Shown one piece after another: positions 10,620 to 25,535 of a stretch of DNA of 36,949 nt. The position numbers and the translations under genes were made by a program. The notes under the pieces were generated by a model that saw only the letters and a program-made list of their open reading frames with translations, ran no database searches and was not told the origin of the DNA. The DNA is from an uncultured Hyphomicrobiales bacterium (GTDB taxonomy: Bacteria; Pseudomonadota; Alphaproteobacteria; Rhizobiales; Devosiaceae), in the NCBI GenBank assembly GCA_903842455.1, contig CAIMLX010000275.1, forward strand, positions 1 through 36,949, read 5' to 3'. How positions within the stretch are numbered: position 1 is the stretch's first letter; every line of letters starts with the position of its first letter.

Positions 10620-11834
10620 ATGAACGATTTCCACCGTATCCGCCGGCTCCCGCCGTATGTCTTCGACCACATCAACCCGATCAAGGCGCGGCTGCGCGCT
10701 GCCGGCGTCGATATCATCGATCTCGGCATGGGCAACCCCGACCTGCCCACCCCGGCTGCCATCGTCGAAAAGCTGCAGGAGACAGTGAAGGACTCCCGCA
10801 CCCATCGCTACTCCAGCTCGCGCGGCATTCCGGGCCTCCGCAAGGCGCAGGCGAGCTACTATGGCCGTCGTTTCGGCGTGAAGCTCGACCCCAACACGCA
10901 GGTGGTGGCGACGCTCGGCTCCAAGGAAGGCTTTGCCAACATGGCGCAGGCGATCACCGCGCCGGGCGACGTGGTGCTGGTGCCCAACCCGACCTATCCG
11001 ATCCACTCGTTCGGCTTCATCATGTCGGGCGGCGTGGTCCGTTCGATGCCGGCCGAGGCGAACGAGGACTTCATGCGCGCGCTAGACCGTGCGGTGCGGC
11101 ACTCGATCCCCAAGCCCATCGCGCTGGTGCTGAACTATCCGGCCAATCCGACGGCCTATACGGCGACGCTCGATTTCTACAAGGAAGTCGTGAAGTTCTG
11201 CAAGGAGCACGACATGTTCATCCTGTCGGATCTCGCCTATTCGGAGATCTACTTCGATGGCGAAGTGCCGCCCTCGGTGCTGGAAGTGCCCGGCGCCATC
11301 GACATCACCGTCGAGTTTACCTCGATGTCCAAGACCTATTCGATGCCCGGCTGGCGCGTCGGCTTTGCCGTCGGCAATGAGCGGCTGATCGCGGCGCTGG
11401 CGCGGGTGAAGTCGTATCTCGACTATGGCGCGTTCACCCCGATCCAGGTGGCAGCGGCGACTGCGCTCAACGGCGACGACAAGGTGATCGAGGAAGTGCG
11501 CACGATCTATCGCGACCGCCGAAACGTGATGGTCGAAAGCTTTGCGCGCGCCGGATGGAACATCGCCTCGCCCAAGGCGACGATGTTCGCCTGGACGCCC
11601 ATCCCCGACCAGTTTGCCCATATGGGCTCGCTGGAATTCGCCAAGCTGCTGGTGCAGGAGACGGCCGTAGTGGTGTCGCCGGGCGTCGGCTTCGGCGAGT
11701 ATGGCGACCAATACGTGCGGCTCGCACTGGTCGAAAACGAGCAGCGCATCCGGCAGGCGGCGCGCAACATCAAGAAATTCCTCGCCGGTACCCCTAGCCA
11801 CGGCAACGTGGTGCCGCTGGCCGCGACGAAGTAG
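10620..11834 (+). CDS. alaC: PLP-dependent aminotransferase, AlaC-like (alanine/LL-diaminopimelate aminotransferase family)
   Basis: A 404-residue fold-type I aminotransferase. Its opening, FHRIRRLPPYVFDHINPIKA, and the segments DIIDLGMGNPDLPTP, HRYSSSRGIPGLR and VLVPNPTYPIHSFGF closely follow E. coli AlaC, which makes alanine from pyruvate and glutamate. The catalytic lysine is Lys238 in SMSKTYSMPGWRVGF, and the C-terminal VRLALVENEQRIRQAARNIK holds the substrate-carboxylate Arg. Many databases call this subgroup LL-diaminopimelate aminotransferase, so the exact amino-acid substrate is uncertain. GAGG lies just upstream of the ATG. In related genomes the gene commonly sits directly before hom; here two unrelated units intervene. 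Confidence 0.88.
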   Translation: MNDFHRIRRLPPYVFDHINPIKARLRAAGVDIIDLGMGNPDLPTPAAIVEKLQETVKDSRTHRYSSSRGIPGLRKAQASYYGRRFGVKLDPNTQVVATLGSKEGFANMAQAITAPGDVVLVPNPTYPIHSFGFIMSGGVVRSMPAEANEDFMRALDRAVRHSIPKPIALVLNYPANPTAYTATLDFYKEVVKFCKEHDMFILSDLAYSEIYFDGEVPPSVLEVPGAIDITVEFTSMSKTYSMPGWRVGFAVGNERLIAALARVKSYLDYGAFTPIQVAAATALNGDDKVIEEVRTIYRDRRNVMVESFARAGWNIASPKATMFAWTPIPDQFAHMGSLEFAKLLVQETAVVVSPGVGFGEYGDQYVRLALVENEQRIRQAARNIKKFLAGTPSHGNVVPLAATK

Positions 11835-11941: not shown

Positions 11942-11951
11942 GGTGCCACCC

Positions 11952-12905
11952 ATGTTTAGCCGCCTTGTCGCGCTGGTCTTGCTGGCGACCCCCGCCGTCG
12001 CGCAGAGCTTTCCCGTCACCATCAAGCACGCGCACGGCGAGACGGTGATCTCCGCCGAGCCGCAGCGCGTGGTGACCTGGGGCTGGTCGTCGAGTGAAGC
12101 CGCGATTGCACTTGGCACCGTGCCGGTGGGCTTCCCGACCTTCCGGTCCGAAGGGCTCGAAATGGACGTCGTTCCCTGGGTGCAGGAGGCGATCGAGGCC
12201 GCCGGTGTGCAGACGCCGGTGTACCTCGACAATGCCGCGAGCCCGCCCATCGAGCAGATCGCGGCGCTGAAGCCCGACCTGATCCTTGCCGTATATTCGG
12301 GGATCACCGAGGACGAGTACAAGCTGCTGAGCCAGATCGCGCCGGTGGTGGCCTATCCGACGACCCCATGGACGGCCTCCTGGCAGGAGACGATCACCAT
12401 CGTCGGCGAGGCGCTTGGCAAGGCAGACGAGGGCAGGGCGATGGTGGCCGAGCTCGAGCAGTTCATCAAGGACGAGGCGGCAAAGCACCCTGTCCTTGGC
12501 GGGACCAGCGCGGTGACGATGATCGACTACAACGGCGCTGCCGCCATCCACTCGGCCGACGATGCACGGGCCAAGCTGCTGAAGCTCGCTGGCCTCGCCA
12601 TCCCCGACCGGCCGGCTGTTGCCGGCGAGCCGCAGGGCTTCTGGTATGCGCTGAGCTACGAGAACTTCGACCAGATCCCGGCCGACGTGCTGATCACCTT
12701 CTTCAGCACCGAGCAGGCGGCCGACGAGTGGTTTGCCCGCGACTATGTGCAGATCGCCCCGCAGATTGCCAAGGGCGCCTATGTCCGGATGGACGACCGC
12801 CTCCTCAACTCGGCGGTGATCTCGTCGAGCGCCCTGTCGATCCGCTGGGGCATGCCGCAGTATTTCGAGCTGATCGCAGCGGCGGCGGCGAAGGCGAAAC
12901 AGTAA
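11952..12905 (+). CDS. Iron-siderophore ABC transporter substrate-binding protein (orphan)
   Basis: A 317-residue periplasmic protein of the FepB/FhuD type (peripla_BP_2). The Sec signal MFSRLVALVLLATPAVA is followed by QSFPVTIKHAHGETVI. The family pattern continues with PQRVVTWGWSSSEAAIAL, IEQIAALKPDLILAVYSGIT and WQETITIVGEALGKADEG. It should bind a ferric siderophore or other iron complex and deliver it to an inner-membrane permease. No permease is adjacent; a complete importer is encoded at 21653-25535 and might be shared. The start is the ATG at 11952, with GAAGG 8 bases upstream; an in-frame GTG lies 3 codons earlier. The gene converges with the toxin gene at 12910. Confidence 0.85.
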   Translation: MFSRLVALVLLATPAVAQSFPVTIKHAHGETVISAEPQRVVTWGWSSSEAAIALGTVPVGFPTFRSEGLEMDVVPWVQEAIEAAGVQTPVYLDNAASPPIEQIAALKPDLILAVYSGITEDEYKLLSQIAPVVAYPTTPWTASWQETITIVGEALGKADEGRAMVAELEQFIKDEAAKHPVLGGTSAVTMIDYNGAAAIHSADDARAKLLKLAGLAIPDRPAVAGEPQGFWYALSYENFDQIPADVLITFFSTEQAADEWFARDYVQIAPQIAKGAYVRMDDRLLNSAVISSSALSIRWGMPQYFELIAAAAAKAKQ

Positions 12906-12909
12906 AGCG

Positions 12910-13323
12910 TCAGGCGTCCCACGGGTTGAGAAGTGGGACGCCGCAGTCCCGCATGTCGCGATCGCGGGACGCCAGCGCCGCACCCCGCGCGGCAGCGATT
13001 GATGCGACCTGTGCGTCGAGTGGCTGGATTGGACGTCCTATCCGCTCTCGGCTGGCGACAATCAGGGCGTATTTCTCGGCGGCCCTTTCGTCGAACGGCA
13101 GGATACGACCTGCAAACTGCTCGAGGATCGCGGCAATCACCCCGGCCATTGCGGCCTTCCGTTTGCCATCCGCCATCTTCCGGACACCGCACAGAAGCTC
13201 GGCCATTGTCACTGCCGTGGTCACCATCGCATCGACCGGCTGTTCGCTGAGCCACCTGAGTACTCTCGGTTCGGGGTTCGGCCGAGTGAGTTCGGAGAGC
13301 ACGTTTGTATCGACGATGATCAC
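12910..13323 (-). CDS. PIN-domain ribonuclease toxin, FitB/VapC type
   Basis: A 137-residue PIN-domain endoribonuclease. The metal-binding acidic residues are in place: Asp5 (MIIVDTNVLSEL), Glu42 (TMAELLCGVRK), Asp103 (IQPLDAQVASIAAARG) and Asp121 (ASRDRDM). FitB-like features include the DTNVLSE start and the RILPFDERAAEKYA segment. VapC-family toxins cleave RNA, often tRNA, when released from their antitoxin. It starts with GTG, overlapping the antitoxin's TGA stop by 4 bases, so the two are translationally coupled. Which RNA is cut is unknown. Confidence 0.9.
   Translation of the reverse strand: MIIVDTNVLSELTRPNPEPRVLRWLSEQPVDAMVTTAVTMAELLCGVRKMADGKRKAAMAGVIAAILEQFAGRILPFDERAAEKYALIVASRERIGRPIQPLDAQVASIAAARGAALASRDRDMRDCGVPLLNPWDA
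12913..12942. terminator. Stem-loop between the binding-protein gene and the toxin gene
   Basis: GGCGTCCCAC (12913-12922), 10-base loop, GTGGGACGCC (12933-12942): a perfect 10-bp stem just after the TAA of the binding-protein gene. It lies inside the 3' end of the convergent toxin gene. No T-run follows. It may stabilise or end the binding-protein transcript. Confidence 0.45.
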
Positions 13324-13574
13324 TTTTCGAACACGTCAGGAAGTGGTCGCTCCGGACCTCTGGGCGGCAACTCGAGGTCGAACCCACCACCGGCAGCATC
13401 GACCATCCGGCGGATGCGGGTCACGAAGTCGCCATGTTCCGGTACCGGCTTGGTCAGCGCCGACCGGAGGATGCGACGTGCCTCCTCCTCCATGGAATTG
13501 TTGTTCGCCGCAGCGCGCAGGCGAAGTTGCGTCTTGAGGTCGTCGTCGATCTGGCGAATGGTGAGGCTGGCCAA
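13320..13574 (-). CDS. Ribbon-helix-helix antitoxin, FitA/VapB type
   Basis: An 84-residue antitoxin. The N-terminus MASLTIRQIDDDLKTQLRLR and the segment SMEEEARRILRSAL are the FitA ribbon-helix-helix domain that binds DNA as a dimer. The C-terminal part, ending LPPRGPERPLPDVFEK, would wrap the toxin. I choose the TTG complementary to 13572-13574 because GGAGG lies 5 bases upstream and the family begins at MASLTIR. The ATG at 13586 would add four residues. The stop overlaps the toxin start. An 18-bp palindrome at 13599-13616 is the probable operator for autoregulation by the antitoxin-toxin complex. Confidence 0.87.
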   Translation of the reverse strand: MASLTIRQIDDDLKTQLRLRAAANNNSMEEEARRILRSALTKPVPEHGDFVTRIRRMVDAAGGGFDLELPPRGPERPLPDVFEK

Positions 13575-13598
13575 AAGAACCTCCATGCATGCATTGAC

Positions 13599-13616
13599 TG
13601 CAATGCTAGCATTGCA
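13599..13616 (-). promoter_or_regulatory. Probable FitA operator (18-bp perfect palindrome)
   Basis: TGCAATGCTAGCATTGCA is a perfect palindrome about 25 bases upstream of the antitoxin start. TGCATGCATTG elements beside it (13587-13597) add further half-site-like sequence. Ribbon-helix-helix antitoxins of the FitA type bind paired inverted repeats in their own promoter, which makes this the likely autoregulatory site. Confidence 0.65.
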
Positions 13617-13629
13617 TGCGCTGGTCATC

Positions 13630-13661
13630 AATCCTATTGACGGATAGGGTCTTTCCTATCC
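13630..13661 (+). promoter_or_regulatory. Three alternating half-sites upstream of hom
   Basis: CCTAT at 13632-13636, GGATAGG at 13642-13648 and CCTATCC at 13655-13661 alternate in orientation. GGATAGG and CCTATCC form a 7-bp hairpin with a 6-base loop; the first copy can pair with the second instead. The set ends 34 bases before the hom start at 13696. It may be an operator with three half-sites or an mRNA leader with alternative stems. The fused helix-turn-helix in the gene below makes self-binding an attractive but untested idea. Confidence 0.45.
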
Positions 13662-13695
13662 ATAGCTCTCGGCGCGTTTTCTGAGAGCCATGTTC

Positions 13696-15204
13696 ATGTC
13701 CGATATCCAGTCGTTCCGTCAGTCCGTAGAAGCCTTCATCGCGGCGCGGGGATGGACACCGACGCGGTTCGGACGGACCATCGCAGGCGATCCGCTGTTC
13801 GTTTTCGACCTCCGTGAGGGCCGCGAGCCGCGCTCCGAGACCCGGACGCGCATCCTCAAGGCGATGCAGGAACAGGCCGACCAGGCGCTCGAAGCGCCGT
13901 TGCGCATCGGCGTGGCCGGGCTTGGCAATGTGGGTGCGACACTGGTCCGGATTATCCAGAAGGACGGCGAGGAACTGACCCGCAAGCTGGGGCGGAAGAT
14001 TGCGGTTACCGCCGTCTGCGCGCGTTCGCGGAGCCGGGATCGCGGCATCGACGCGAGCGCGCTCAAATGGTTCGACGATCCGGTGGCCCTGGCAAAGTCC
14101 GACGATATCGACCTGTTCGTCGAACTGATCGGCGGCGAGGACGGGCCAGCGCTGGCGGCAGTGAAAGCGGCGCTGGAGATCGGGCGCCCTGTAGTGACGG
14201 CCAACAAGGCGCTGCTGGCGCGCCACGGCGTGAACCTGGCGAGAATCGCCGAGGAATCGGGCGCGCAGCTCGGCTTCGAGGCCGCCGTCGCGGGTGGCAT
14301 CCCGGTGATCAAGACGCTGCGCGAGGGGCTGGGCTCGGCCCGGATCGCGCGCGTCTACGGGATCATGAACGGCACCTGCAACTATATCCTGACGCGGATG
14401 GGCAACGAGGGCATCGGCTTTGCCGAGTGCCTCGCCGACGCGCAGAAGCTTGGCTACGCCGAAGCCGATCCGAGCTTCGATGTCGATGGGTTCGACACCG
14501 CGCACAAGCTCGCCATCCTCGCCTCGCTGTGCTTTGGCTGCGAGATTGCGCCCGACGAGATCTTCGTCGAGGGCATTCGCACGATCAGCCAGGCCGACAT
14601 CAAGGTGGCCGGCGACCTCGGCTACAAGATCAAGCTGCTCGGCATCGCGCAGCGCTCGCCCGATGGTATCGACCAGCGCGTGCATCCGACGCTGGTGAAG
14701 AAGACCTCGGCGATTGCGGGCGTCGATGGCGTGCTGAACGCGGTGGCACTCGAAACCGACCATGTGCACGAACTGCTGCTGGCCGGCCCCGGCGCCGGTG
14801 GGCCGCCGACGGCGTCGTCGGTGCTCTCCGACATCCTCGACATCGCCCGTGGCACCCGGGTGCCGCCGCTCGGCGTGCCGGTGGCGGAACTGACGCCCTA
14901 CCGGCAGGCGCCGATGCGGGCGCACGAGGGCGGCTACTACATCCGACTAAATGTCAGGGACGTGCCGGGGGCGTTTGCCGCTATTGCTACCCGCATGGGT
15001 GCCGCGGGCATTTCGCTCGAAAGCGTCATCCAGCGTCCGGATTTGCGTGTTAGCGAACCCGGCGTCAGCGGGACCGAGTCCCGTACGGTGGTGGTGCTCA
15101 CACACTCCACCATGGAGCAGTCGGTTCGCGATGCGCTGAGCGCAATCAAGGGCGACGGTTTCATCGTCGGCGATCCGCAGATGATCCGGATCGAAGCCTT
15201 ATAA
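13696..15204 (+). CDS. hom: Homoserine dehydrogenase with N-terminal HTH-like fusion and C-terminal ACT domain
   Basis: A 502-residue protein; usual Hom proteins have about 430-440 residues. Residues 1 to about 60 are extra and read like an XRE-type helix-turn-helix: FRQSVEAFIAARGWTPTRFG followed by a DPLFVFDLREGREPRSETR-type turn and helix. From residue about 68 the normal enzyme begins: NAD(P)-binding GVAGLGNVGATL (72-83), VTANKALLARHG (about 167), NGTCNYILTRM (about 225) and the catalytic region DPSFDVDGFDTAHKLAILA (about 259). An ACT domain starts at about 416 (YIRLNVRDVPGAFAAIATRM). The enzyme reduces aspartate semialdehyde to homoserine for threonine and methionine synthesis; ACT usually senses threonine. 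GAGAG 8 bases before the ATG at 13696 favours it over the ATG at 13690. An internal ATG at 13864 would give a normal-length enzyme. Confidence 0.9.
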   Translation: MSDIQSFRQSVEAFIAARGWTPTRFGRTIAGDPLFVFDLREGREPRSETRTRILKAMQEQADQALEAPLRIGVAGLGNVGATLVRIIQKDGEELTRKLGRKIAVTAVCARSRSRDRGIDASALKWFDDPVALAKSDDIDLFVELIGGEDGPALAAVKAALEIGRPVVTANKALLARHGVNLARIAEESGAQLGFEAAVAGGIPVIKTLREGLGSARIARVYGIMNGTCNYILTRMGNEGIGFAECLADAQKLGYAEADPSFDVDGFDTAHKLAILASLCFGCEIAPDEIFVEGIRTISQADIKVAGDLGYKIKLLGIAQRSPDGIDQRVHPTLVKKTSAIAGVDGVLNAVALETDHVHELLLAGPGAGGPPTASSVLSDILDIARGTRVPPLGVPVAELTPYRQAPMRAHEGGYYIRLNVRDVPGAFAAIATRMGAAGISLESVIQRPDLRVSEPGVSGTESRTVVVLTHSTMEQSVRDALSAIKGDGFIVGDPQMIRIEAL

Positions 15205-21600: not shown

Positions 21601-21652
21601 TCTTAACGGTCGATAGGTGACACAACTTGTCCACTTTCGCCGAGGCTCCGTC

Positions 21653-22609
21653 ATGTTCAGATCAATCTTCGCCGCCGCACTTGCGTTGGGCTTCGCGGCC
21701 ACCTCGGCGCTTGCCGCCGAGTGGACCTATACCGACGGTAGCGGCAACACGGTGACGCTCGACCACGTCCCCACCCGCATCGTCATGCATGCCAACACTG
21801 CGGCTGGCCTGATCCCGCTCGGCATCCGTCCGGTCGGCATCTATGTCGACACGCCGGTGGCCGAGGACAAGTCGCTGCAGGGGCTCGACCTGACCGGCAT
21901 CGAGATCGTCGGCGAAGGCTGGGGCGAGATCGACATCGAGAAAGTGGCGGCGCTGAAGCCGGATCTGGTGCTGGCCGAGTGGTGGCCGCTCGAGAAGGCG
22001 TTCAGCGGGCTCGAAGGGGGCGCCGGCAGCACGAACCAGAAGATGGTGCAGATCGCGCCGGTCACCGGTCCGGCCCAGGGCGCCTCGATCGTGCAACTGA
22101 TCGCCGACTACGAAACGCTCGCCGCCAGCCTCGGCGCCGATCTGTCGGCGCCCGACATCGCTGCCGACAAGGCGGCTTTCGAAGTGTCGCTTGTAAAGTT
22201 CAAGGCCGCCGTGGCGGCCAAGCCCAACCTGACCGTGCTGCCGGTCTGGGCCGGCACCGATGCGCTCTATGTCGCTGCCACCGCGGGCTCCTCCGAGCTG
22301 ATGGACTTTGCCAGCTGGGGGCTGAAGCTGATCACCCCGGACGTGGCTGACGATCGCGGCTACTGGGAGACGCTGAGCTGGGAGCAGGCCGACAAGTATC
22401 AGCCCGACCTGCTGATCGTCGACAATCGTTCCGACGCCACGATGGAGACCGCCGCGGCACAGCCGATGTGGACGGCCATGAAGGCCGCCGAAGCCGGGCA
22501 GGTGGCAGACTGGCCGGCCTTCTGGCTGCGCAACTACAAGGCCTATGCTGGCGCGCTCGACGAGCTGACGGCGGCCATCGACGCCGCTGACGAGAACCTG
22601 ACGAACTGA
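21653..22609 (+). CDS. Iron-complex ABC transporter substrate-binding protein
   Basis: A 318-residue periplasmic protein of the FepB/FecB type. The signal peptide MFRSIFAAALALGFAATSAL is followed by AAEWTYTDGSGNTVTLDHVPTR-type strands. IDIEKVAALKPDLVLAEWWP and AGTDALYVAATAGSSELMDF are typical of peripla_BP_2, and the C-terminal helix LTAAIDAADEN ends the fold. It captures a ferric siderophore or related iron complex for the permease encoded next. The ATG at 21653 has GAGG 7 bases before it; a TTG/GTG-type start further up is disfavoured. First gene of a four-gene operon, with 4 bases to the next gene. Confidence 0.9.
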   Translation: MFRSIFAAALALGFAATSALAAEWTYTDGSGNTVTLDHVPTRIVMHANTAAGLIPLGIRPVGIYVDTPVAEDKSLQGLDLTGIEIVGEGWGEIDIEKVAALKPDLVLAEWWPLEKAFSGLEGGAGSTNQKMVQIAPVTGPAQGASIVQLIADYETLAASLGADLSAPDIAADKAAFEVSLVKFKAAVAAKPNLTVLPVWAGTDALYVAATAGSSELMDFASWGLKLITPDVADDRGYWETLSWEQADKYQPDLLIVDNRSDATMETAAAQPMWTAMKAAEAGQVADWPAFWLRNYKAYAGALDELTAAIDAADENLTN

Positions 22610-22613
22610 TCCG

Positions 22614-23645
22614 ATGACGGTAGCGGCGGCCGAGCAGCGATCGAGCAGGGTGCCGGCGCGAGCCGGCGGCCTGCTGCTGCTCGGCGTGGTGCTGGCGGCG
22701 GTGCTGTTCCTGTCGATCACGGTCGGCGCGCGGCCGATCGCGCTGGGCGATGTCCTTGCCGCCATCATCGCGCCCGCTCCGGACAGCACGACGCATCGCA
22801 TCATCCTCGAGCTGCGCCTGCCACGAACGCTGGTCGGGCTGCTGGTGGGAGCGGCTCTCGGACTGTCGGGTGCCATCCTGCAGGGCGCGACGCGCAACCC
22901 GCTGGCCGATCCCGGGCTGCTTGGCATCCAGTCGGGCGCGACGCTCTGCGTGGTGCTGGGTATCTCGGTGTTCGGCATCACCACGTTGTCCGGTTATGTC
23001 TGGCTGGCGTTTCTCGGGGCCGGCATCGCCGCCGTGGCGGTCTACCTCATCGCCTCGATGGGGCGGGAAGGTGCAACGCCGGTGAAGCTGGCGCTGGCCG
23101 GCGCAGCAGTCACCGCGGCGCTCGGCTCGGTGACCAGTGCCATCCTCATCACCTCGGTCGAGACGCTCGACCAGATCCGCTTCTGGCAGGTCGGTGCGCT
23201 GACTGGCCGGACCACGGACATCCTCCTGCAGGTGGCGCCGTTCCTGCTCTTTGGCATCGCGCTGGCGCTGACCACCGGCCGCATCCTCGACGGGCTGGCG
23301 ATGGGCGATGACGTGGCACGCGGCCTCGGGCAGCGGGTGCAACTGAACCGGGCCTTCGCCGGGCTCGCGGCGGTAATCCTGGCCGGTGGAGCAGTGGCAG
23401 CCGCCGGGCCGATAGCGTTTGTCGGCCTCACCATCCCGCATGTGGCCCGCGCGATGACCGGTCCGAACTACCGCTGGATCCTGCCCTACTCGATGTTGCT
23501 CGGCCCCATCCTGCTGCTCGGTGCCGATATCATCGGCCGGGTGATCGTGCCGCCGGGCGAGTTGCAGGTGGGCATCGTCACGGCTGCCATCGGTGCGCCG
23601 TTCTTCATCGCCTTCGTGCGCCGCCGCAAGCTGGCCGAGCTATGA
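22614..23645 (+). CDS. Iron-complex ABC permease 1 (FecCD family)
   Basis: A 343-residue inner-membrane protein with about nine or ten hydrophobic helices. FecCD signatures are LRLPRTLVGLLVGAALGLSG, ILQGATRNPLADPGLLGIQS and the ATPase-coupling region AAAGPIAFVGLTIPHVARAM. It pairs with the second permease to form the translocation channel for ferric siderophores. Its ATGA overlap with the next gene (23642-23645) indicates tight translational coupling. Confidence 0.93.
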   Translation: MTVAAAEQRSSRVPARAGGLLLLGVVLAAVLFLSITVGARPIALGDVLAAIIAPAPDSTTHRIILELRLPRTLVGLLVGAALGLSGAILQGATRNPLADPGLLGIQSGATLCVVLGISVFGITTLSGYVWLAFLGAGIAAVAVYLIASMGREGATPVKLALAGAAVTAALGSVTSAILITSVETLDQIRFWQVGALTGRTTDILLQVAPFLLFGIALALTTGRILDGLAMGDDVARGLGQRVQLNRAFAGLAAVILAGGAVAAAGPIAFVGLTIPHVARAMTGPNYRWILPYSMLLGPILLLGADIIGRVIVPPGELQVGIVTAAIGAPFFIAFVRRRKLAEL

Positions 23646-24703
23646 ACGTCAACGTACAATTTGCCCCGGCCGCGACGGTGGCCGCCGCGAGGCGCAAGCT
23701 GCGGACCCGCCACCGGCTGGTGACGGCCGCACTCACTCTGATCGTGCTGGCGCTGGTGGCGGCGGCGCTGACGATTGGCGACTACCCGCTGCCGGTCGCA
23801 GAGGTCGTAACGTCGCTGCTCTCGCCCTTCACCGGCGTCACCGATCCGGCCAGCGACTTCATCGTGCTCGGCGTGCGGCTGCCACGGGCGATCACCGGGC
23901 TGCTGGCAGGCGCGGCGCTGGGGCTATCGGGCGTGATCTTCCAGACGGTGCTGCGCAATCCGCTCGCCAGCCCCGACATCGTCGGCATCACCACCGGGGC
24001 CAGTTCGGCGGCAGTGATCGCAATCATCGTCTTCCACGCCACCGGCCTGATGGTCGCCCTGAGCGCCACCGGCGGCGCGGTGCTGATCGCGGCGCTGATC
24101 TACGCGCTGAGCTGGCGCGGCGGGGTGACGCCCTACCGGCTGGTGCTGGTCGGCATCGGCATGGCGGCCATCGCCGCGGCGATCACCTCATACCTGTTCA
24201 CCCGCGCCCGCATCTTCGAGGTGCAGCAGGCACTGGCCTGGCTGACCGGCAGCCTCAACGGCGCCAGCTTCGACACTCTCGGCCCGCTGGCGCTGGGCCT
24301 CCTGGTCCTCGGCCCGGTCGCAACAATCCTCTACCGCCCCCTCGCCAGCCTCGAGCTGGGCGACGATGCCGCGAAAGCCCTCGGCACGCGGGTCGAGGTG
24401 ACGCGGCTCGGCACGCTGCTGGTGGCCGTGGTGCTCGCCGCGTTCGCCACGGCGACGGTCGGCCCAATTGCGTTCGTCGCCTTCGCGGCAGGGCCGGTGG
24501 CGCGGCGGCTGCTGGGTCCGGCCGGCAACCCGCTTCTGCCGTCGGCCCTCGTCGGCGCAGCCGTTACCATCGGCGCCGACCTGATCGCGCAGCATGCGCT
24601 GGGCCGCAACCAGTTGCCGGCCGGCGTCGTCACCGGCGCCATCGGCGCGCTGTTCCTCATCTACCTGCTCGCTGCTGCGAACCGCTCCGGTCGCGGCGGC
24701 TGA
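23642..24703 (+). CDS. Iron-complex ABC permease 2 (FecCD family)
   Basis: A 353-residue paralogue of the preceding permease. The same signatures are seen: VRLPRAITGLLAGAALGLSG, VIFQTVLRNPLASPDIVGIT and ATVGPIAFVAFAAGPVARRL. The first 30 residues are hydrophilic and basic. Two different FecCD permeases per importer is the FepD-FepG arrangement. It starts inside the end of permease 1 and is followed after 10 bases by the ATPase gene. Confidence 0.93.
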   Translation: MNVNVQFAPAATVAAARRKLRTRHRLVTAALTLIVLALVAAALTIGDYPLPVAEVVTSLLSPFTGVTDPASDFIVLGVRLPRAITGLLAGAALGLSGVIFQTVLRNPLASPDIVGITTGASSAAVIAIIVFHATGLMVALSATGGAVLIAALIYALSWRGGVTPYRLVLVGIGMAAIAAAITSYLFTRARIFEVQQALAWLTGSLNGASFDTLGPLALGLLVLGPVATILYRPLASLELGDDAAKALGTRVEVTRLGTLLVAVVLAAFATATVGPIAFVAFAAGPVARRLLGPAGNPLLPSALVGAAVTIGADLIAQHALGRNQLPAGVVTGAIGALFLIYLLAAANRSGRGG

Positions 24704-24713
24704 AAGGACTGCC

Positions 24714-25535
24714 ATGAGCCAGAACCACCAGCTTTCGGCCACCGACGTGAAACTCGGCTATGGCGAGCGCACCATCGTCGAAAAGCTGAGCATCACCCTG
24801 CCACCCGACAAGTTCACGGTGATCGTCGGGGCCAATGCCTGCGGCAAGTCCACGCTGCTGCGCGGGCTGGCGCGGCTGCTGGCACCGGCCTCCGGCTCCG
24901 TCTACCTCGATGGCCGCGCCATCCACCAGATGTCGACGCGGGAAGTGGCGACGGTTCTCGGGGTGCTGCCGCAGACGCCGGTCGCGCCCGATGGCATCAC
25001 CGTCGCCGACCTCGTCGGCCGGGGCCGCTACCCGCACCAGGGCTGGTTCCGCCAGTGGACGGCGACCGACGACGCCGCCGTCGCCTCGGCGCTGCAATCG
25101 ACCGATACGCTCGACCTGGCGCAGCGCGCGGTGGATGAGCTCTCCGGCGGCCAGCGGCAGCGGGTGTGGATCGCCATGGCGCTGGCCCAGCGCACCGATA
25201 TCCTGCTGCTCGACGAGCCGACGACCTTCCTCGACATCAACCACCAGGTCGAGGTGCTCGACCTCCTCACCGACCTCGTGCGCACACAGGGTCGCACCGT
25301 GGTGGCGGTGTTGCACGACCTCAACCTCGCCTGCCGCTACGCTGACCACATCGTCGCCATGCAGGGCGGCCGGATCGTCGCCGAAGGCGCGCCGGCTGCG
25401 GTGATGACATCGGCGGTGGTCAAGACCGTGTTCGGCATCGACAGCGAAGTGGTGATCGACCCGGTGTCGCAAAGCCCGATGATCGTGCCCATCGGCCGGC
25501 ACCACCGGCTGAAGCAGGCGGTGCCGGCCGAGTAG
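24714..25535 (+). CDS. Iron-complex ABC transporter ATP-binding protein (FecE/FepC type)
   Basis: A 273-residue ATPase. Walker A is GANACGKST (about 39-47), Q-loop VLPQTPVAPDGITV, signature LSGGQRQRVWIAMALAQ (from about 142), Walker B ILLLDEPTTFLD (from about 163) and the H-loop in VAVLHDLNLACRYADHIVAM. The order and spacing are those of siderophore importers. AAAGGA lies 8 bases before the ATG at 24714; in-frame codons upstream are inside the permease gene. Last gene of the operon; it converges with the SRPBCC gene, one base apart. Confidence 0.95.
   Translation: MSQNHQLSATDVKLGYGERTIVEKLSITLPPDKFTVIVGANACGKSTLLRGLARLLAPASGSVYLDGRAIHQMSTREVATVLGVLPQTPVAPDGITVADLVGRGRYPHQGWFRQWTATDDAAVASALQSTDTLDLAQRAVDELSGGQRQRVWIAMALAQRTDILLLDEPTTFLDINHQVEVLDLLTDLVRTQGRTVVAVLHDLNLACRYADHIVAMQGGRIVAEGAPAAVMTSAVVKTVFGIDSEVVIDPVSQSPMIVPIGRHHRLKQAVPAE

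Follow-up and report, generated by a model that had tools for sequence, protein, structure and literature searches.

The homoserine dehydrogenase (Hom) encoded in the window, the whole 36,949-base stretch of DNA that was analysed, is very probably an enzyme that doubles as a regulator devoted to its own promoter, its regulatory part being derived from a phage Cro-operator cassette inserted before hom. The frame at 13696..15204 carries a four-helix helix-turn-helix (HTH) domain of about 62 residues in frame with a complete homoserine dehydrogenase (NAD-binding, catalytic and ACT domains). Computational analysis establishes this fusion, its conservation, a conserved operator that is nearly confined to hom and phage relatives of the domain with matching operators. 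Because the matching site lies in hom's own promoter, hom is probably under the control of the enzyme that it encodes; this would work through direct DNA binding and repression rather than activation, and transfer would have run from phage to host. The operator, the phage relatives and the occurrence of the fusion throughout a whole family all go beyond the original prediction.

The hom frame reads without a stop through to 15204 in the open reading frame of the window. An alternative ATG is found at 13690; matches to relatives begin at or beside the Met at 13696, and a Met occupies this place in 80 of 80 named loci (the best 80 of 100 stretches with a relative). The protein is organized as follows:

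13696..13878, plus strand: N-terminal XRE/Cro-like HTH domain (residues 1-61, counted from Met 13696)
13879..13896, plus strand: variable linker from HTH to enzyme (about residues 62-67; pN/pS 0.779 for residues 61-67)
13918..14277, plus strand: NAD-binding domain, NAD_binding_3 (PF03447), by Pfam
14302..14838, plus strand: homoserine dehydrogenase catalytic domain, Homoserine_dh (PF00742), by Pfam at 210.7 bits
14935..15147, plus strand: ACT domain (PF01842), a putative amino-acid sensor, by Pfam at 36.4 bits (cut-off 27)

Both enzyme domains score above the curated Pfam cut-offs, which places the protein among the homoserine dehydrogenases, and NCBIfam PRK06349.1 matches it with 519 bits (cut-off 205). 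The C-terminal ACT domain that had been read from the sequence is indeed retained. In the Hom alignment (A2), the context GYAEADP..DV.G.DTAHK, whose residues we take to form the active site, is kept, and catalysis is predicted. The full-length AlphaFold2 model (mean pLDDT 81.6) resembles known Hom structures, with TM scores of 0.87-0.90 by target length. Solved Hom proteins align by sequence with the window protein from residue 68-69 onward; the closest of these, from Thiobacillus denitrificans (3mtj) and Mycobacterium (6dzs), have no match to the residues before that point.

The proposal that the roughly 65 N-terminal residues form an XRE-type HTH holds. AlphaFold2 predicts four helices (residues 3-18, 22-30, 35-41 and 47-62), with a mean pLDDT of 90 for the domain alone and about 85 for the same domain inside the full protein. 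The predicted structure is a compact helical fold of the XRE/lambda-repressor-like kind: the nearest folds in Foldseek are HipB, C.AhdI, CapH and P22 c2 (TM 0.61-0.70, E values of at least 0.3), and the top 18 hits, whose titles we take to denote the XRE kind, are all XRE/lambda-repressor-like (probability 0.82-0.98, E of at least 0.3). The helix boundaries originally drawn were correct only in part, as the supposed turn, TPTRFGRTI, is predicted to be helix 2. No curated HTH profile matched the segment in Pfam (first 69 residues), NCBIfam or PHROGs; a relative with tandem HTHs, L080, reaches Pfam HTH_3 right at the cut-off, with 23.0 bits. Across 27 aligned sequences, 25 of 66 columns are invariant. 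Twenty of these 25 fall within T23-R50, and the invariant columns include F35, V36, F37, L39 and R40 in the third helix, which by analogy with XRE proteins is the putative recognition helix.

Purifying selection acts on the N-terminal segment with the same strength as on the enzyme parts. This is evident from pN/pS values of 0.131 for the HTH part, 0.146 for the NAD part and 0.117 for the catalytic part, with 0.779 for the linker, which varies between relatives in both sequence and length. These values come from 22 pairs against the window gene as reference, in a sample of 23 of 30 sequences from which seven diverged ones had been removed beforehand.

The same extension is found in orthologues throughout the family. 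The HTH domain is present in 126 of 136 Devosiaceae genomes. The open frame around it reaches 400 aa or more in 121 of the 126 and is shorter in five; the ten genomes in which it was not found are all fragmented (230-1,010 contigs), three of them being at least 90% complete. A search of 61 genomes (the window's and 60 relatives) found the domain in 34 of 37 Devosiaceae genomes and in none of 24 genomes from other families of the order, and Hom itself is present in 58 of the 61. The named loci bear mostly the names Devosia, Pelagibacterium and Arsenicitalea, with some higher-level names; Devosia and Pelagibacterium belong to the Devosiaceae, Hyphomicrobiales. In 80 of 80 loci (best 80 of 100) the HTH continues in frame into the NAD part of Hom, as judged by motif in 78 and by reading in two (L172 and L176). 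The NGTCNY motif lies within the HTH-Hom frame of 77 of these best 80 of 100; the remaining frames stop at a contig end (L127, L164) or at a stop codon (L176). Thirteen HTH matches in other families, from 297 genomes of the order, were all inspected, and none is fused to Hom. The fusion foreseen by the original prediction is confirmed by sequence, structure prediction and orthologues; it is real and old, probably predating the divergence of the Devosiaceae.

A wrong start, a chance frame and a sequencing error were rejected as explanations of the extended frame, given the conservation among relatives and the purifying selection. The chance that translation begins at 13864, with the upstream frame open by accident, is vanishingly small. 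A Met does exist at 13864, but the segment before it is under purifying selection, the domain is conserved in 126 of 136 genomes and the promoter block is positioned for a start at 13696. Moreover, the objection that orthologues might start at 13864 only fails, since this Met lies inside predicted helix 4; the orthologues carry the full domain.

Upstream of hom, the genomes have little sequence in common apart from one block, which combines a probable promoter with a candidate operator:

13633..13659, plus strand: promoter/operator block CCTAT-TGACGG-ATAGG-GTCTTT-CCTAT, CCTATTGACggATAGGgtcttTCCTAT, conserved among upstream sequences
13633-13637, 13644-13648 and 13655-13659, plus strand: half-sites CCTAT, ATAGG and CCTAT, 11 bp apart
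13637-13641, plus strand: TTGAC, probable -35, conserved in the block
13645..13658, no strand assigned: candidate core operator TAGG-N6-CCTA, also present beside phage Cro-like relatives

The core lies 37 bp before the window's ATG and 3 bp past TTGAC, and its exact form occurs once in the 36,949-base window. Among the best 80 of 100 loci, TTGAC-N3-TAGG-N6-CCTA within 150 bp of the ATG is exact in 75, has one mismatch in one and three mismatches in four; in 1,600 shuffled upstream sequences, the best match has two mismatches (2 of 1,600). When 68 loci dereplicated by flank are compared, the information content is 1.4-2.0 bits at each position of CCTA, TTGAC, TAGG and CCTAT, bases past the core are partly conserved, and bases at least 10 upstream of TTGAC carry roughly 0.0-0.3 bits. 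Although promoter spacers can ordinarily vary freely, the half-site lying between TTGAC and the start has been kept across the 80 loci (best 80 of 100). The distance from operator to ATG is 12-18 bp in 56 and 27-40 bp in 24 of the 80 loci (best 80 of 100); with 37 bp, the window's hom belongs to the longer-distance class, unlike the phage-like short class. A plain sigma-70 consensus scan scored no promoter at the hom block.

As far as sequence searches tell, the putative operator is essentially confined to hom. In whole-genome searches, TTGAC-N3-TAGG-N5-TCCTAT with at most one mismatch occurs in 29 of 37 Devosiaceae genomes, each time at hom. Two of the 24 genomes from other families also have a site, in neither case at hom, and the window's own genome has one more (on C140, among other open frames). 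At this threshold the pattern is missing from five of the 34 genomes that carry the domain. Without TTGAC, the pattern of three half-sites occurs at hom in 27 of 37 genomes, at two more places in Devosiaceae and at three places across two other-family genomes. No wider regulon appeared in these searches, as patterns with and without TTGAC match hom and isolated places only. Of 20 hom stretches from other families, 19 were readable by motif; an HTH appears in none of them over the 45 residues that precede the NAD motif, and the closest operator match in each has 4-7 mismatches.

It is quite improbable that the HTH no longer binds DNA and now serves Hom structurally or in protein interaction, for example in oligomer assembly or enzyme regulation, with the upstream block acting as a strong promoter only. 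Hom is an oligomer, an added helical domain could on general grounds serve its assembly, and the domain has diverged too far for Pfam. Loss of binding, however, fits poorly with a predicted DNA-facing helix that is among the most conserved parts, with the conserved half-site that follows TTGAC before the start, with the failure to find the block in any of the 19 hom promoters read that belong to genes without the HTH, and with its recurrence beside the related HTH genes of phages and of CysD fusions.

The closest relatives of the Hom HTH lie in the Cro/CI region of temperate phages (IMG/VR loci L290-L305 and the G632 prophage), most of which have the same operator. A search of 297 genomes across the order returned 15 Devosiaceae members and 13 matches in other families, comprising one stand-alone gene (G632), nine CysD fusions (g333), one CoaBC fusion and two small proteins. 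The stand-alone gene of G632 lies opposite an S24/CI-like repressor gene in a stretch, five reading frames of which were scanned, with phage integrase, ERF, YqaJ and VRR-NUC genes; this company identifies a prophage. Phage GenBank records in INPHARED gave just two weak matches to the HTH, and IMG/VR gave 20 loci with relatives, many of them near-identical. In all six viral loci picked, a divergent CI-like repressor gene (PHROG_4) adjoins the Cro-like HTH gene. Relatives in these six loci and in the G632 prophage thus have the arrangement expected of Cro, opposite a CI-like repressor with the operator between. The phage proteins stand alone at about 65 residues, without an enzyme, whereas the HTH of Hom has the enzyme attached; among the window neighbours scanned, no cI-like gene lies beside hom.

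Within 170 bp upstream, TAGG-N6-CCTA is exact at 78 of 80 Hom loci (best 80 of 100), at 15 of 20 viral loci (twelve are near-copies, and L308 is without upstream sequence) and at the one prophage gene (1/1). The shuffled expectation for an exact operator is at most 0.12 per group, and at most 0.08 each for the viral, prophage and CysD groups. Among stand-alone and tandem relatives, the operator is exact in 5 of 24 and within one mismatch in 11 of 24, against 1.48 expected. Promoter spacing is shared with hom in part: the arrangement TTG-NN-N3-half-site-N6-half-site recurs in L298, L299, L300 (TGGG), L305 (CAGG) and the prophage, in which the half-site lies 13-15 bp from the ATG, close to the 12-18 bp of most hom loci. 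Two other picked phage loci, L290 and L303, keep the palindrome and not the TTG spacing. Upstream of L307 and L309, two distant viral members, GACGGATATATCCGTC repeats stand in place of TAGG-N6-CCTA, which is what co-variation of site and domain would produce; comparison across members suggests that the recognition helix and its site change in step. Another member, L288, has TGGGATTATGCCCA repeats upstream.

A palindrome in a promoter could, as a general matter, be the site of any factor, and the operator might be real and yet be bound by another regulator of the cell instead of the Hom domain. We consider this very unlikely: the site stands at hom in 29 of 37 Devosiaceae genomes and a single genome has it at another place too, the HTH segment is single-copy in the window's genome at E<=0.01, leaving no paralogue to act in trans, and the homologous phage HTH proteins are accompanied by the same site.

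Sequence comparison also bears on where the domain came from. Mean identity to the Hom HTH domains is 59% for the G632 prophage and 50-58% for ten viral rows; it is 35-40% for two distant viral rows and at most 43% for every other row. In a tree of 65 domains and 63 columns, Hom, the ten viral rows and the prophage lie on one side of a branch with support of 100/97, the CysD fusions form a separate group (99/95), and the Hom group is split from the viral rows at 73/76. It is rather unlikely, given these data, that the domain stems from a chromosomal family of alphaproteobacterial regulators and that phages acquired it separately or from Devosiaceae, in which case self-regulation would be right and capture from a phage wrong. 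Such an origin would accord with the stand-alone members of the family found in many alphaproteobacterial genomes and with the moderate support for the split between Hom and viral domains. The gap in identity between the prophage and ten viral rows and all others, the 100/97 branch uniting them with Hom, and the promoter spacing common to part of the phage loci argue instead for a phage source.

The neighbourhood of hom is consistent with an insertion. In the window, the genes and gene pairs concerned are:

10620..11834, plus strand: class I/II aminotransferase, the upstream neighbour of hom, found also in most other-family stretches
11943..12905, plus strand: Peripla_BP_2 binding protein, between the aminotransferase and the PIN/FitA pair
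12910..13631, minus strand: PIN-domain toxin and FitA-like antitoxin, adjoining the hom promoter
21617..25535, plus strand: second Peripla_BP_2 binding protein, with an ABC ATPase further on

The cassette sits between the aminotransferase gene and hom. Of 20 stretches from other families, 14 have an aminotransferase gene whose end lies 7-247 bases upstream of the Hom enzyme part; the remaining six showed none within the 628-681 bases read. In Devosiaceae, 31 of the best 80 of 100 loci were tried; 26 have the aminotransferase gene 266-2,519 bases upstream, two have it at 3.1 kb, and in three it was not found. These larger gaps fit the insertion of a promoter-operator-HTH cassette before hom, and the smallest of them equal the cassette in length. 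The window's larger gap contains the periplasmic binding protein and the PIN/FitA toxin-antitoxin pair. The two Peripla_BP_2 proteins and the ABC ATPase are presumably an iron-siderophore uptake set split over two places.

Taken together, the data suggest that a Devosiaceae ancestor gained a cassette in the interval separating the aminotransferase gene from hom, made up of a temperate phage early promoter, its TAGG-N6-CCTA operator and a small Cro-like repressor gene, and that this gene was then joined to hom in frame. Paired HTH domains of the Hom oligomer would most likely bind, as a dimer, the palindrome just past the gene's own TTGAC box. Bound Hom would block RNA polymerase, such that the protein limits its own synthesis (negative self-control). 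Binding may be altered by threonine, NADPH or oligomeric state; an effect of threonine on DNA binding through the ACT domain is speculative. Some XRE-type regulators are activators, as is generally known, and repression by Hom is deduced; fused Hom might accordingly bind its promoter but activate hom, or binding might merely position the enzyme. Either is unlikely, as the sites overlap the TTGAC box and the next 20 bp, where a bound protein usually blocks polymerase, and as the closest relatives are positioned like phage Cro repressors.

Other proteins also carry an HTH of this family. In nine genomes of f22/g333, an N-terminal HTH of the same family precedes what we take, from its sequence, to be CysD, sulfate adenylyltransferase subunit 2 (L278-L286); Pfam PAPS_reduct is present in L273, the CysD fusion scanned. 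TAGG-N6-CCTA is exact upstream of six of nine and within one mismatch in nine of nine, against 0.56 expected, and it lies 5-6 bases ahead of the start of the HTH domain in eight of nine. Like HTH-Hom, these fusions combine an N-terminal HTH on a biosynthetic enzyme with the same operator, but they belong to a separate HTH branch, with another enzyme and in another family of the order. In a single genome (G696; L287/L275), an N-terminal HTH with a one-mismatch operator upstream is fused to a protein with Pfam Flavoprotein and DFP domains, presumably CoaBC. Class II fumarase (fumarase C) carries an N-terminal HTH in G074 (L082/L312), with a two-mismatch operator upstream. Five genomes from five families encode proteins of about 450-480 aa, which from a sequence motif we take to be methyltransferase-like, with an N-terminal HTH (L085, L331, L332, L333 and L334). 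The HTHs of this group are more distant; L085, the one of the five counted, has an operator with three mismatches and no Pfam match, and we ascribe no self-regulation to this group. Tandem HTH pairs occur in open frames of 251-449 aa (L075, L077, L080, L081, L084, L089 and L090), and two scanned proteins of this kind also carry an HTH_17 domain.

A broader reading, which we hold tentatively and with slightly more doubt than belief, is that a small phage-type HTH gene with its promoter and operator forms a portable self-regulation cassette that has repeatedly been fused to biosynthetic enzymes in Alphaproteobacteria, each of which would thereby have come to repress itself in a single step, with threonine tuning the effect via ACT in Hom. 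Its cases would be Hom (Devosiaceae), CysD (f22/g333), CoaBC (G696), fumarase C (G074) and perhaps the methyltransferase-like protein of several families.

Trigger enzymes are few, and how one first gains its DNA-binding half together with a matching site is an open question. Hom combines, on its predicted fold, an enzyme and a DNA-binding-type domain in one protein, as such enzymes do. The DNA-binding domain of PutA is a ribbon-helix-helix, and we know of no phage relative of the PutA operator; PutA differs from Hom in its enzyme and DNA-binding fold, and it is catabolic. NadR and BirA have an N-terminal HTH and regulate several genes of one pathway, whereas the site of Hom is essentially confined to its own gene. 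According to PMC8249747, PutA of E. coli, which acts in proline utilisation, is a trigger enzyme that binds its own control region and has a single target or very few, and NadR and BirA are counted as trigger enzymes. PutA, as PMC8249747 presents it, and Hom are alike in being enzymes with a DNA-binding domain whose own control region is bound (for Hom, by prediction). The suggestion that Hom is an enzyme-regulator of the PutA/NadR type gains support from the operator in its promoter and from phage relatives beside the same operator. Trigger enzymes as a kind are familiar; what is new, as far as we know, is this enzyme with this family of DNA-binding domain, and the apparent capture of domain and operator together. 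No description of a Hom with an HTH domain was found in the open-licence PMC literature, which does not in itself prove absence from print.

In Hom, operator and binding domain seem to have arrived together, and phage relatives still keep both. The origin of a trigger enzyme may therefore be visible here, with a date (before the divergence of the Devosiaceae), an empty site in other families for comparison and parallels in CysD, CoaBC and fumarase. If this is true, phage genetic switches are ready-made parts for metabolic self-control, and fused Hom would provide a simple system in which to test control of transcription by an enzyme's own ligand. It would also mean that a large family of environmental bacteria regulates the threonine/methionine branch point in a new way.
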